Source: Limisphaerales bacterium | GTDB taxonomy: Bacteria; Verrucomicrobiota; Verrucomicrobiia; Limisphaerales; SXTU01 | NCBI GenBank assembly: GCA_009773355.1 | Contig: WRPG01000003.1 | Location: 1 to 64,000 of the forward strand | DNA: 64,000 nucleotides | Direction of reading: 5' to 3' | Part shown: one piece after another, positions 17,111 to 37,800 of the stretch | How the letters are laid out: each line of letters opens with the position of its first letter | Position numbering within the stretch: position 1 is the first letter of the stretch | Program-made: the position numbers and the translations under genes | Notes under the pieces: model-generated | What the model saw: the letters and a program-made list of their open reading frames with translations, nothing else | Told to the model about the DNA's origin: nothing | Database searches by the model: none

Positions 17111-18394
17111 TCACCGCCGGGGCCGCGCCAGCAGCAGCGCGTTCGCGACCCAGCCGGAGCCGATGACACCGAGGAGGAAAATCCCAAACGCCGCGTTGCC
17201 CAGCGCGTTGAGCGTGGGCGGGCCGTCGGCGGGGACGAAGTCCAGCGCCATGCTCAGGATGCCCGCCGTCGCCATCAGCACGGTGTAGACGCTCATCATC
17301 CGGCGCGGCCAGCCGGTCGCGCACTTGAACGTGGCCGACAGCGGGATGAGCAGCGCACCAAACACCAGCGCGCCGATGACATACGGTGATTCGAACCCGG
17401 CCGCGAAGCACATCCCCAGCGACGTCAGCGCCAGCGCCACGCACGCGCCCACCCAGTTCGCCGCGCGCGTCTGCTCCTCGGAGAGCGCGAGCCGGCCAAA
17501 CTTGTTGAGGCGCAGCAGCAGGTTGAACAGCGGGTCAGCCGTCCAGGTGAGCAGCGCGAAGGCGATGTAGAGCACGCGCACCGGCAGCACCCACGGCGCG
17601 AGGTCGGGGTTGGAGCGCGCGAGCTGGCCGAGCAGGCGGTTGCCGAACCAGCCGCCGAGAAGGATGCCGAACTGCACCTGCGGCTTGAGCTTCGCCATCC
17701 AGAGGAAGTAGCGCAGCATCAGCGAGTAGGTGAAGTGCCGCGCCTTGAGCGACTCGATGATGCCCTGCCGCGCCCACTCGTTGTCCGGGTCGAGCCGCAG
17801 CGACTCGCGGAAATGTTCAAGCGCCTTGGCCGGCTGGTTTTGTTCGAGCAGCGTCCAGCCTTGGTTCGCGTGCGTGAAGGAGTTGTCCGGGTCGCGCGCA
17901 AGGGCGGTGGCGATGGTCGCGCCGGCCTCGGCTTTGCGGCCCAGCTTCACGAGCGCGACGGCGCGGAGATTCGTGCTGGCGACGTGCTGGGCATCCAGTT
18001 GCAGGCCGCGCTCGGCGGATGCGAGCGCCTCGGCCCAGCGGTAATTCGCGAGGTGAATCTGCGCCTCCAGCGCGTGGAAATCCGCGTCCTCGGGTTCGAG
18101 GCGGATGGCTTCGCGCACGGCGTCGAGCGCGGGCTTGAAGTCATGCCGGTCGTGCAGCACATGCGCGAGTGCGTAGTGGGCGAAGGGCAAGTCCGGCGCG
18201 AGCGCGACGGCCCGCTGCGCCTCGTCCTGCGCCTCGGCGAACTGCTCGCCGTCCGCCAGACACACGGCGAGCAAGGCGTGTGGCAGCGCGGCATCGGGGT
18301 CGCCCGCCAGCACGCCGCGCAACTCCGGGATGGCCAGCTCATGCCGGCCTTGCTCGATGAGGAGCAAGGCGCGCTGAAGTTGCGGCAAGGTCAT
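17111..18394 (-). CDS. TPR-repeat membrane protein
   Basis: The 427-residue protein starts MTLPQLQRALLLIEQGRH and has about six TPR units over residues 1-215, with typical signatures such as LPFAHYALAHVLHDRHDF, SFTHANQGWTLLEQNQPAKAL and HFRESLRLDPDNEWARQG. The second half is hydrophobic with about five helices (VLPVRVLYIAFALLTW, WVGACVALALTSLGMCF, YVIGALVFGALLIPL and two more). The ATG at 18394 is chosen because everything further upstream is the palindromic element at 18396-18540. Function unknown; a membrane scaffold is the simplest guess. Confidence 0.82.
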   Translation of the reverse strand: MTLPQLQRALLLIEQGRHELAIPELRGVLAGDPDAALPHALLAVCLADGEQFAEAQDEAQRAVALAPDLPFAHYALAHVLHDRHDFKPALDAVREAIRLEPEDADFHALEAQIHLANYRWAEALASAERGLQLDAQHVASTNLRAVALVKLGRKAEAGATIATALARDPDNSFTHANQGWTLLEQNQPAKALEHFRESLRLDPDNEWARQGIIESLKARHFTYSLMLRYFLWMAKLKPQVQFGILLGGWFGNRLLGQLARSNPDLAPWVLPVRVLYIAFALLTWTADPLFNLLLRLNKFGRLALSEEQTRAANWVGACVALALTSLGMCFAAGFESPYVIGALVFGALLIPLSATFKCATGWPRRMMSVYTVLMATAGILSMALDFVPADGPPTLNALGNAAFGIFLLGVIGSGWVANALLLARPRR

Positions 18395-18395
18395 G

Positions 18396-18540
18396 GCGTG
18401 TCTTGGACTGCGCCGGCAGAGCGCAGCGGCGACGGCGCTTTGGCTTCCCGCATGGCGGCAAATGCGCCGAATTGCCCGACCGCTCCGCGGGACGGAAAAG
18501 CGGCGTCGCGCTCCGCTTGCCGCCGCAGTCCAAGACGCGC
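18396..18540. repeat. Long inverted-repeat element, GTCTTGGACTGCG type
   Basis: The ends carry GCGTGTCTTGGACTGCG and its inverted copy CGCAGTCCAAGACGCGC, and the homology continues inward for about 45 bases per arm with few mismatches, leaving a central part of roughly 55 bases. The element begins one base after the start codon of the minus-strand TPR gene and so occupies its whole 5' leader. It is the only copy of this family in the window. Confidence 0.8.
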
Positions 18541-18575
18541 GACGGACCACGAGGCGGCGCTGGGAAACACGGTGC

Positions 18576-19937
18576 TCACACCTTGAGATACTTCAGCACC
18601 TCGTCATACGCGCCGCCTTGGTTCGCGTAGAGGGCGTAGTTGCGCGCGGTGGCGAACCACTCGCGGGTCGTGGGCTTGAGCGCGCTGATGGCTTGCGCGA
18701 GATCCTTCGTCCGCAGCGGCGTGGGCACGCCGGACTTCATGGCCTCGCGAAGTTTGTTCTCGATGGCGAGGTCCACGACGGCTTTCAAGTCCGCACCGGA
18801 GAAGCCGTCAGTTTTCTTCGCGAGCGAGTCGAAGTCCGCGTCCTCTGCCGGCTTGCCGCGCAGTTGCAGGCGCAGCACCGCAGCGCGCGCGGCGGCGTCC
18901 GGCGGAGGGACGAAGAGGATGCGGTCGAAGCGCCCGGGCCGGCGGAACGCGCTGTCGAGATGCCATGGGGCGTTCGTCGCGCCGAGGATCAGGATGCCCT
19001 CGTTGCTCGACTTCACGCCGTCGAACTCGGCGAGGAACTGGTTGATGAGATGGCGGCCCGCGCTCTGCCGCATGTCCGCGCGGCTCGCGCCGAGCGCGTC
19101 CACCTCGTCGAAGAACAGCACGCACGGGCGGTGCCGGCGGGCCTGCTCGAACAGTTCGTGCAGGTTGCGCTCGCTGTTGCCGATCCACATGTCGAGCACA
19201 TCGTTGATGCCCACGGCGATGAAGCCGGCCTTGATTTCGCCGGCGGTGGCGCGGGCCAGGTGCGTCTTGCCGCAACCGGGCGGACCATACATGAGGATGC
19301 CGCCGCCGATGGCCTTGCCGTAGGCCTTGTAGAGGTCCGCGTGCGTGAGCGGGTGGATGATCTTGAGGCGGATTTCCTCCTTGAGCGCGTCCATGCCGCC
19401 CACGTCGGCGAAGGTGATCTTGGGCCGCTCGACCTCGACCTTCGAGCTTTCCGGCTCCGGCTCCCAGCCGGCGCGGAGCTTGCCCTCGAAGACCTCGCTC
19501 TCCTCCTCGTCGGCCTCGATGCCGAGTCGCGTGGCAAATTCCAAATCCGCAGCGGAAGCATCCTTCTCCACCCCACGCTTGTATTGGATGACCGCCTGCT
19601 CGACTTCGCCGACGCCCGCAAGCAGCCGCGCGTGCAGCACAAAGGCGCGCGCTGGCGCATTGGCGGACTTCGTCAGCGACTCGATGAGCGCGAGCGCGTG
19701 GCTGTTCTTGCCTTGCGCATGGAAGGCGCGGGCGAGGCCGAGCTGGAGCGCGGGATGGTCCGGCGCTTGTGCGAGCGCTTCGCGGTATTCCTTCTCCGCC
19801 TCGGCGGCGCGCCCGGCGGAGAGCAGCGAGTCAGCGAGATGCTGGCGCAAGGGGACGTTGTTGGGCGTGAGCCGCAACGCCTCGCGGAGCGCGTCGAGAT
19901 TGTCGCCGCCGGAACCGGATGAAGGGCTGCCTGCCAT
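18576..19937 (-). CDS. TPR-AAA+ ATPase
   Basis: A 453-residue protein with TPR-like helices in residues 15-135 and one AAA+ domain from about 175 to 430. Visible motifs are Walker A GPPGCGKTHLARATA, Walker B PCVLFFDEVDALG, sensor 1 ILILGATNAP and the arginine-finger region SAFRRPGRFDRILF, followed by the lid with DGFSGADLKAVVDLA. This places it in the Cdc48/spastin-like classical AAA clade, which unfolds or remodels proteins. The ATG at 19937 is preferred over a TTG 12 codons upstream. A linker with many Glu residues separates the domains. Confidence 0.9.
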   Translation of the reverse strand: MAGSPSSGSGGDNLDALREALRLTPNNVPLRQHLADSLLSAGRAAEAEKEYREALAQAPDHPALQLGLARAFHAQGKNSHALALIESLTKSANAPARAFVLHARLLAGVGEVEQAVIQYKRGVEKDASAADLEFATRLGIEADEEESEVFEGKLRAGWEPEPESSKVEVERPKITFADVGGMDALKEEIRLKIIHPLTHADLYKAYGKAIGGGILMYGPPGCGKTHLARATAGEIKAGFIAVGINDVLDMWIGNSERNLHELFEQARRHRPCVLFFDEVDALGASRADMRQSAGRHLINQFLAEFDGVKSSNEGILILGATNAPWHLDSAFRRPGRFDRILFVPPPDAAARAAVLRLQLRGKPAEDADFDSLAKKTDGFSGADLKAVVDLAIENKLREAMKSGVPTPLRTKDLAQAISALKPTTREWFATARNYALYANQGGAYDEVLKYLKV

Positions 19938-19991
19938 GCTGCGCAGGAGAGCGGAATCGGACGGGAAAATCAAGCCGCGCCGCGCGCCGGC

Positions 19992-34841: not shown

Positions 34842-37800
34842 TCACGCTTCCGCCTCCTGCTCCGCTGGCTGTTTCAATGCACGAAACGGCTGCGTCCACG
34901 GGTCGAAGCGGCAGATGGCGCGGTAATCGCAGCGGTCGCAGGCCTTGTCGCTGGCGCTGACGCGGACGGGGGAGACGGCAACCTCGCCGGCGAAGATGGC
35001 CTCGCCGAGGCGGCGGAGATTGGCTTCGACTTGCGTGAGCAGGGCGGCGAACTCGGCGGAGGGCAGCGCATCGGAGCCGCGCGCGATGAGGCCGCCGTCC
35101 TTGTTCAGCCGCAACTTGAACTGCCCGCTGGCCGCGCCGCCGGGGCGCGCGTCCAGCAGTGCGCGGTGGGCAAAATCAAAGCGGCCGGCGTGCTGGTAGG
35201 TGGCGCGGCGGGCGGCCTCGTCCTCGGAGAGAATCTCGGCGCGCTCGCCGGTGGAGCCGGTTGCGCCGTGCAGCGGGATGTAAAAGACGCCGGCGGGGTG
35301 GAGCGCGGCAGCAGCCGACGTGAGGAGGCTCTGGCTCGATTCCGCATTCCGCGTTCCGCGTTCCGCATTAGCTGGAGCCTCCTCACGTCGGCTGCTACTG
35401 AGGACATTCAGATACGCAAGCAGTTGAAGCTGGAGGCCGTTCTCGACTTTGAGCGCGTCGAGCTTCTTCGGGCTGCTCTTGTAGTCCACGACGACGGCGA
35501 GGGTTTCGCCTGACTTCTCGTCGCGGCAGAGGTCCACGCGGTCAATGCGGCCACGCAGCGAGAGGACTTTGCCGTCCGCCAGCGCGAGCCGCCACGCGGG
35601 CAAGGGGCTGCCGGGCAGGCCGAAGCCGAGTTCCACCGCGACGGGGTCGAAGGCGTAGCCGGGCATCCAGCCGACCAGCGCGGCGAGGAGCCGTTGCGCG
35701 CTGGCGATGAGCGAGCGCGCGGCGAAGCGGCGGGAGTCGTCCGCCGCGAAGAGCGCGAACTCGGGGCTGGCGAGCAGGTCTTCGCCGACGCGGGCGGCGA
35801 GTGCGGCGGCGTCCGCAAGCGAGAGGTCGCGCCAGCGTCGGCCGGAGGCGGCAACGCGCAAGTGAAACTCGTCGAGCAGGCGGTGGATGAAGCTGCCGCG
35901 CTCGCGGTGGTCCACCTCGAACTCCTTGCGTTCCTCCGCGCCCAGCCCGGCGGCGACGAAGAACTTGAACGGGCACTCGGCGAATTGCTCGAGCTTGCTT
36001 ACGGAGGTGCGGAGTTCGGTGTCGTAGAGCTGGGAGACGGCGCCGGGGGAAAGGCGTGTGGCCGCGCGGGCGGCGGTGATTTCGTGCCAGCGGGTGATGA
36101 CGGGGGCGAGGGCGGGGAGGGATGCTAGGGATTGGAGCGCCGATGGGGCCGAGGGAGAAGAGGCGGCGGCGAGTTCGCGGAGGATTGGTTCCAGCAATTC
36201 CTCCGTGTGCTCGGCTTCGCGCCAGTCGTGCGTGGGCGGGACTTTTTCCAGTTCGAGGTCGGGGAAGAGTTGCTGGACGTGCGCGAGGATGGGCGAGGGG
36301 TGGAGCGGTTTGCCGTCGGTGTCGGCAGCGGAGCAGGTGAGCACCAGGCGCGAGCGGCTGCGGGTGCAGGCGATGTAGGCAAAGTAACGTTCGTGCGCAA
36401 TCTGCGCGCGCGGGTCGAGACCGAGGCGGGTGTCATGCGCGGCGAGGAGGTCGCGTTCGGTCTCGGTGAGCAGGACGGGGGGCGTGGGCGGAGCGGGGAA
36501 GATCCCTTCGTTCAGGCCGAGGATGAGCGCGAGTTGCAACTCGGGATTGCGCGAGCGGTCAATGGTGCCGATGAGCACCTGGTCGAGCGCGGGCGGGATG
36601 ACGCCGACGGAGAGGGAGCTGAGGCCGGCTTCAAGGATGGGGATCCATTCGCGGAGCGGCAGGGCGGGGGCACTGGCGGGGAAGGCGCGCTCCAAGTTGT
36701 CGAGCCACTCGTGCATTTGGCGCAGGACGGTGGCGTGGAGCGGAGGGGCGAGCGCGGGGACAGGAGTGTCGCCTTCACGGGCAAGGGCGTCGTCCCAGGC
36801 TTGCAGGCGGGACTCGATGGCGAGCGTGTCCCACATCGAGCGGAGGGCGGCGGCGAGTTGCGCGCCGGAAATGGCTTCTGACAAACGAATGGGGACAAGC
36901 GAATGAGGAGGAACTGATTCGTTTGTCCCCATTCGTTCGTCAGTTTCGTTTTGGTTGAGTTGTTCGGCCAGCTTCGCGATGGGCGCGGTGAGGCGAGCGC
37001 GGAGGTGCTCGGCGCGCGGGAGGTTGAACTTGGGTTCGGGGATGGCGAGCGGTTCGAGCCATTGCGCGCCGCGCCAGCCGTGGGCGAGGGCGAGGTTTTC
37101 CAGCCAGTCAATGTCCTCGTCGCGGTCGTGGACAAGACCGGACTTGAGCGCGCCGAAGAGGTCGTCGGGCTGCCAGCCGTAGGCAAGCGTGCGGAGGGCA
37201 AGGCGGGTCAGTTCCGCGAGCGGGTGGTGCGCGACCGGCTCGCGGCGGTCGAGGAAGAAGGGAATGCCGTAGCGCGTGAAGACGCGGCGGAGCGCGGTGT
37301 GGTGGTGGTCGAGCGTGCGGAGGATGACGGCGCAGTCGCGGAAGCGCCCACCGGCGCGGACGTGGCGGAGGATTTCGCGGGCAGCGAGGGTGGCCTCGGC
37401 TTCGGGGTTGGCGCACTGGCAGCGACGAAGAGGCGAAGGCGGATGCTGGATGCTGGATGCTGGATGGAGTGTGCTCGTAGCGCGACATTCCAATGTCGCG
37501 GTTTCCATGGTTGCTGTCTCGTCCGAGCAGACCGATTCCGATTCGGAAGCGACGTCTCGACATTGGAATGTCGAGCTACCAGAGGCGGCGGGCGCAGTCC
37601 AGTTGGCTTCGAGTTGAGCGAGGGTTGGGCTGTCGCGGCAGCGGCTGTGGGCGGGGTCGCGCGGGAGTTCTTCGACACTCGCTTCGCAGCCTGGCAGGGC
37701 GGCGATGCGTTGGCGGCAATCCAAGTAAGTGCGGCGGACGGTGGACCAGAGGGAGAGCCAGCTTTGCGAGTCGGCGGCCTGCGGGTCGAGGCAGAAGGCG

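Follow-up and report, generated by a model that had tools for sequence, protein, structure and literature searches.

The closest described relatives of the element analysed here are the REPINs and BIMEs, which consist of two inverted REP hairpins separated by a spacer, occur in tens of copies, and are accompanied by an HUH Y1 transposase gene (RAYT, or TnpAREP) that is itself flanked by REPs. In the literature consulted, comprising portions of PMC6006769 and PMC3733652, the recognition of REPs by RAYTs was worked out on the GTAG repeats of Proteobacteria. According to PMC6006769, each RAYT has its own REP family, and in several TnpAREP subclasses the foot of the REP reads GT[AG]G. In the E. 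coli enzyme, residues W94, Q95, E100, H101 and R104 belong to the region that interacts with this foot, and subclasses without GT[AG]G REPs differ in that region (PMC6006769).

Repeats of other kinds have also been described. PMC3733652 presents CGTC-tagged REPs with stems of 8-9 bp that start with A/T pairs and loops of 4-5, reportedly without a transposase. Untagged REPs and TIRtrons, acidobacterial ones included, appear in both papers. In the TIRtrons with their TIRYTs (PMC3733652) and in TnpAY1 subclass 2.6 and class 3 (PMC6006769), a tyrosine transposase lies beside inverted, partly self-complementary repeats that are not of the GTAG kind, and some of these are from Acidobacteria.

Here we describe an inverted element in a 64,000-nucleotide stretch of the genome of a Limisphaerales bacterium (the window). 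With a probability of roughly 0.88, we consider it to be a mobile, non-autonomous REPIN-type repeat, probably recognised by a RAYT/TnpAREP of a distinct clade, that inserted at the overlap of an AAA-ATPase gene and a TPR gene and is now a folded spacer between them.

An inverted element between two genes

The original prediction, made from the window alone, placed a long inverted element with arms of about 45 bases at positions 18396-18540. The inverted repeat proved to be real. Its ungapped arms (18396-18418 and 18518-18540) are 23 nt long and 91% complementary, and arms of about 45 bases are obtained if small interruptions are tolerated, with almost the whole stretch pairing on folding. The plus strand folded as DNA gives a z-score of -7.7, and the minus strand folded as RNA reaches -110.9 kcal/mol (z -5.5); in neither case was any of 200 shuffled sequences equally stable. 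No Rfam family reached its gathering score anywhere in the window.

As predicted, a single base separates the start of the arm at 18396 from the ATG (18394-18392) of a TPR membrane-protein gene (17111-18394, minus strand). The element had also been taken for the whole leader of this gene. Although the arm does adjoin the ATG, the stretch is an intercistronic spacer that follows a TPR/AAA-ATPase gene on the same strand (18576-19973, minus strand), a conserved neighbour that the prediction had missed. Of the 181 nt that separate the AAA-ATPase stop codon (18576) from the TPR ATG (18394), the element takes up 145, and a further 35 nt that are not present in congener G002 lie between it and the stop codon (18541-18575). 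Also missed were that the element is a genome-wide repeat and that each of its halves forms its own hairpin.

Repeat searches, folding and the alignment of copies define the whole element (18396-18540) as a REPIN-like pair of inverted REP hairpins. The left REP (18400-18441, plus strand) has a GTCTTGGACT foot and a stem formed by GCGCCG (18410-18415) and CGGCGC (18433-18438), followed by TTT. The right REP (18497-18536, minus strand) is inverted and reads AAA, then the stem GCGGCG (18500-18505) and CGCCGC (18521-18526), then AGTCCAAGAC. Between them, an inner accessory stem of TCCCGCATGGCGG and CCGCTCCGCGGGA (18446-18492) surrounds a variable spacer (18459-18479). This inner stem is missing from some copies in the same genome and from many foreign ones, and a similar stem is present in the REPINs that flank a congeneric RAYT gene (L315).

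A dispersed repeat built from two hairpins

The element recurs throughout its own genome. A similarity search of the assembly (6.16 Mb, 162 contigs), in which 40 of 124 first-look candidates were scored, gave at least 87 matches when both strands were counted, and the 11-base end motif matched 75 times versus 9 times for its reversed control. On merging the window with 65 fetched stretches, at least 45 places were found to hold the repeat, a number that includes single halves and the window copy. Both half-motifs are present at 31 of the 45, lying within less than 205 nt of sequence with short flanks.

Alignment of 23 of these 31 two-half copies revealed compensatory changes. When each half is folded alone into a local hairpin, 99.5% of cells pair, 38 cells carry double changes and five pairs are changed on both sides. 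None of 500 shuffles reached the observed number of paired cells, of double-change cells or the covariation score. For two of the five measures some shuffles did: the number of doubly changed pairs was reached by 43 of the 500 and the number of pair types by 49. The signal is lost when the partners are slid. In the long hairpin that joins the two halves, 86.9% of cells pair, which is no higher than in the shuffles, covariation does not rise above them, and pairing breaks at the locally covarying columns as well as at some others. Because the compensatory changes fall within the halves and not between them, the unit is a hairpin of ~40 nt, present twice in inverted orientation. Its consensus is TTGGASTGCG-stem-loop-stem-CGCTTT (TTGGASTGCG-NN..N'N'-CGCTTT), with two inverted copies placed around a variable spacer. 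This double-hairpin layout is the anatomy of a REPIN.

Other palindromes accompany the family. A second inverted repeat (roughly GGGGACACTCTTGTCCCC..GGACAGGAGTGTCC) lies within the spacer of several copies (L042, L043, L045, L140 and L210), and the short palindrome TAGCTCGACATTCCAATGTCGAG, which is repeated in the organism's own genome, is found at about 37556-37578 of the window and in the flanks of L036 and L046. At L017 (2068-2194) and at L133, in two genomes, a copy abuts a reading frame that resembles what we take to be the start of tRNA-dihydrouridine synthase (LALAPMQDV), and the start codon of this frame would fall inside the right REP.

Occurrence in other bacteria

The family is present in 27 of 58 relatives, which represent 17 of 48 genera. 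Searching other species for the left half with a 36-nt pattern (TTGGASTGCGNNGGCAGAGCGCAGCGGCGACNNCGC) gave at least 97 matching stretches, which come from at least 41 assemblies as counted by accession prefixes. Among the matches listed, most are titled Limisphaerales or other Verrucomicrobia, and five assemblies are titled Acidobacteria, Blastocatellia or Pyrinomonadaceae. Hydrogenedentes, Planctomycetales and others account for a few more. Two contigs of the IMG/VR viral collection (L211 and L212) match as well. The two halves of several acidobacterial copies are nearly identical, and these represent the clearest form of the element. In 12 genomes chosen for holding the motif, a shorter pattern gave between 1 and 71 matches per genome, with 0 for the reversed control.

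A metagenome-assembled genome, JARLJW01 (L120, L129, L130, L136, L141 and L144), contains many single REPs within a longer repeated unit, caacgcgccagcgtgtt-REP-CGCCTGC, which is possibly a local amplification.

A candidate mobilizer beside the repeats

In some relatives, one congener included, the repeats flank a gene for an HUH tyrosine transposase (RAYT/TnpAREP) of ~185-190 amino acids. The arrangement is exemplified by an acidobacterial locus (L143, Acidobacteria gp4), where the gene has a left REP immediately on one side and a right REP on the other: the CGCTTT of the left REP is followed after 12 nt by a gene encoding 188 amino acids, and the right REP starts no more than about 10 nt from the stop codon. 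Five of 99 pattern-fetched loci, from two phyla, hold a RAYT near a REP (L143, L162, L165, L122 and L153); at L153 the hairpins closest to the gene belong to a loop variant, with a copy of the window type some 250 nt away. The RAYT protein scores 78 bits against the NCBIfam model for REP-associated tyrosine transposases (NF047646, REP_Tyr_transpos; cut-off 80) and below the cut-off against Pfam Y1_Tnp, and its best match in the PDB is TnpArep (4er8, E 5e-6).

A profile built from four REP-adjacent proteins matches 21 of the 58 relatives at E<=1e-6. Strong matches (E<1e-50) comprise 16 genes in 13 of the 58 genomes, four of these in the genus of the window. By our reading of the flanks, every one of the 16 genes is bordered on one side or both by hairpins that share this frame, plainly in 15 cases and in a deviating form in one (L324). 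Loops of the window type flank three of the 16 (G015, G018 and G007), a CCTC type lies beside the RAYTs of five genomes (G054, G018, G005, G016 and G048), a GACTCGTC-like type beside those of four (G004, G007, G012 and G003), and the other types are single. In congener G007 a RAYT gene stands between two copies whose inner stem resembles that of the window element. In G015 some 20 nt separate the gene from one flanking copy and some 90 nt from the other, and the chance of copies this close on both sides is roughly 1e-7. A cognate RAYT flanked by the same REP family was found in relatives only (L143, L162, L165, L122, L313, L314 and L315). From these arrangements we infer that the RAYT moves the REPs, and it is likely their mobilizer.

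The assembly of the organism itself, which is 95% complete, yielded no RAYT of the REP-flanked clade at E<=1e-6. Across the 58 genomes, RAYTs are not significantly associated with the element (9 of 27 element-bearing genomes versus 4 of 31 others, p 0.11), and 18 of the 27 element-positive relatives gave no strong match. Assemblies broken around repeats, other loop types or RAYT loss may account for these results. In the left flank of one copy in the organism's own assembly (L044), there is a REP-like GGAGTGCGGTGACTCGTCACCG with the loop type of another RAYT sub-clade.

Other transposases were considered and rejected as mobilizers. Three Y1_Tnp genes reside in the organism's own genome, and none is flanked by the element. 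The best of them (L051, 2900-4100) is flanked by a different palindrome, CCTGGGGCGTTGCCCCAGG, and sits between two copies of a sequence that presumably corresponds to the end of a type I restriction specificity gene (hsdS). The 29 Y1 loci of relatives that were best by Pfam score are likewise unflanked, none of three REP consensus strings matching them over more than 18 nt, and the Pfam Y1 search at E<=0.001 found nothing in six element-bearing genomes. In-frame TGA codons raised the possibility of a recoded stop in RAYT genes, which was also rejected: these stops are the ordinary C-terminal ends of a shorter form of the protein. The RAYT gene of Luteolibacter marinus (L122, 5386-5940) has an in-frame TAG near its end and is the sole one with a stop further inside; this copy looks broken.

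Foot tag and candidate recognition residues

The repeats share their general organization with the GTAG REPINs and differ from them in the foot. All 23 aligned copies of the organism's own genome carry GGAST where GTAG REPs have GT[AG]G, and foreign copies carry GGAST too, in searches whose pattern itself demanded TTGGASTGCG. The GGAST family was found here mainly in Verrucomicrobiota and Acidobacteriota. Differences are also seen in the transposase. In an alignment of 20 RAYTs of the clade, which has a gap next to position 95, all 20 retain HYH together with residues equivalent to Y115, N119 and W94, and position E100 is E or D. Of the foot-interacting positions described for the E. coli enzyme (PMC6006769), Q95 is replaced in 19 of the 20, and H101 and R104 in all of them. 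These residues may read the GGAST foot.

For the HUH motif and the Y---NP reported as the signature of class 2 TnpAREP, all 20 proteins have HYH, Y and N, whereas the last position is P in 11 and A in 9. The Y----Q signature of IS200/IS605 class 1 is absent, since all 20 have Y---N, with N at the position of N119. As in the CGTC-tagged REPs, many copies of the window genome begin with CGTC and form inverted pairs. However, the stem of the GGAST family is GCGNNG, its CGTC is not part of the conserved core and acidobacterial copies do not have it, and in relatives the family has RAYT genes beside it, unlike the CGTC-tagged repeats, which reportedly have none (PMC3733652). The GGGGWSAS motif given there for some TIRs of TIRtrons was not seen on reading the GGAST REP, and class 3, as outlined in PMC6006769, combines Y----Q with a CnGA foot instead of the Y---N and GGAST found here. 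A member shared with the TIRtrons and TIRYTs, subclass 2.6 or class 3 is nevertheless possible. Most likely the element is a REPIN with its RAYT that falls outside both the GTAG and the CGTC definitions. A search for the motif strings in the open-access PMC text, which covers articles without figures or supplements, returned only the 11-mer TTGGACTGCGG, in three unrelated papers.

Loop type appears to go with the RAYT tree (n=20). A single change suffices for each of types A, B and E, the ones represented by several rows, and the eight labels taken together require seven changes, the minimum possible, which none of 200 shuffles matched. For type A, the window type, support is weak, its uniting branch having low values (30/22). 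Near-copies also favour clustering of the labels.

The AAA-ATPase/TPR junction

The end of the AAA-ATPase gene lies upstream of the TPR gene in all 18 loci examined. Each locus comes from a different genome; matches had been found in 23 genomes, and the other five were set aside as fragments or weak matches. The TPR frame begins at the same residue in four congeners, the organism itself included, and the predicted start codon is thus probably correct. In congener G002 the AAA-ATPase stop and the TPR start overlap as GTGA (AAGGTGTGACC) with zero spacer. The genes overlap by our reading in 7 of the 17 junctions from other genomes (G002 and six order-level relatives), lie about 50 nt apart or less in 7, and are further apart in 3. 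Because of this distribution, the ancestral junction was likely overlapping or tight, and the change from overlap to gap is the direction that we infer from these sequence comparisons.

The 181 nt found in the window, set against these overlaps, favour the suggestion that the element may have replaced the native leader of the TPR gene, although what served as leader in the ancestor was probably the terminal part of the gene upstream. None of the congeners G002, G007 and G010 has the element at the TPR gene. In G007 and G010 the junction is 223 nt long and is filled by a different palindromic repeat (CTCACCCC / CTCTCCC type; L215 and L224), and different repeats therefore seem to have invaded this junction.

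Alternative explanations

Could the element instead act in cis on the TPR gene specifically, as an RNA structure that governs translation or mRNA stability? The strong RNA fold and the single base between element and ATG speak for this possibility, as does the pairing of positions -20 to -1, whose mean probability of being unpaired is 0.15 in the window and 0.39, 0.49 and 0.51 in the three congeners. The start codon itself, by contrast, is most paired in G010, which is free of the element. No GGAG, GAGG, AGGA or AAGG occurs at -20 to -4 in the window or in G002, G007 and G010, and strict consensus searches found neither a sigma-70-like promoter nor an intrinsic terminator at the window copy. 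A site-specific regulatory element is very unlikely because the same sequence occupies dozens of other places: the family is found at 44 further sites in this genome and in many other organisms, and it is absent from the TPR gene of the three congeners. Short, inverted, dispersed and non-coding sequence is equally what one would expect of a classical MITE, an element with terminal inverted repeats that depends on a DDE transposase supplied in trans, and other repeats are sometimes found inside the loop. Yet double-stranded terminal inverted repeats have no need of the covariation seen within each half, relatives carry an HUH RAYT between or beside the repeats, and inspection by eye of the flanks at 45 places revealed no obvious target duplications. 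At the one congeneric overlap site available for comparison (G002), 35 extra nucleotides accompany the element on the AAA-ATPase side. We regard a MITE as highly improbable.

A broader alternative is that the host now keeps the copies as terminators, RNA-stabilising hairpins or protein-binding sites, and that mobility belongs to the past. Four orthologous copies shared with the JACRKB01 assembly show 7 differences in 300 REP positions, compared with 52 in 211 for the spacers (about 25%) and 274 in 1603 for the flanks. An exact left-REP pattern picked out the JACRKB01 loci and similarity the organism's own copies, so both are biased, but the right REP, which lies outside the search pattern, differs at only 6 of 144 positions (p 6e-8 versus spacers and 8e-6 versus flanks). 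Because the REPs are conserved while the spacers diverge, these comparisons suggest that the hairpins have been under selection or gene conversion long after insertion. In favour of retention by the host, the organism also keeps well-conserved REPs with no RAYT detected in its assembly. Against present-day retention by the host, gene conversion between copies would look alike, selection bias affects the left REP and the organism's own copies, only four sites contribute, and the window copy contains no strict terminator. On balance we find this alternative somewhat unlikely.

Implications

The reading that we prefer, a REPIN-kind mobile repeat, predicts the following course of events. Two inverted REP hairpins of ~40 nt would be recognised as single-stranded DNA by an HUH tyrosine transposase, and the distinct RAYT clade to which it belongs would read, in place of GTAG, the GGAST foot together with the apical loop. 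In the window, one copy would have inserted where the AAA-ATPase stop overlapped the TPR start, ending the overlap of the two genes, and would now persist as a strongly folded intercistronic spacer.

A bolder proposal, which we advance tentatively and at slightly less than even odds, is that these repeats constitute a third large REP/REPIN superfamily, defined by a TTTGGAST foot and CGCTTT after the stem and distributed among Verrucomicrobiota, Acidobacteriota and their neighbours. In this superfamily the tag-reading residues of the RAYT would have changed, sub-clades would each read their own loop, and hairpins would be selected by the host at fixed sites even after RAYT loss.

With its catalytic residues kept, residues linked to GTAG recognition swapped, a different foot and at least six tree-linked loop types, the clade would offer a natural specificity series for learning how domesticated transposases read single-stranded hairpins. 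The locus in the window would also show how a REPIN-like insertion can undo an overlapping gene pair, and some of the odd small reading frames in draft genomes of Verrucomicrobia may be repeat sequence.
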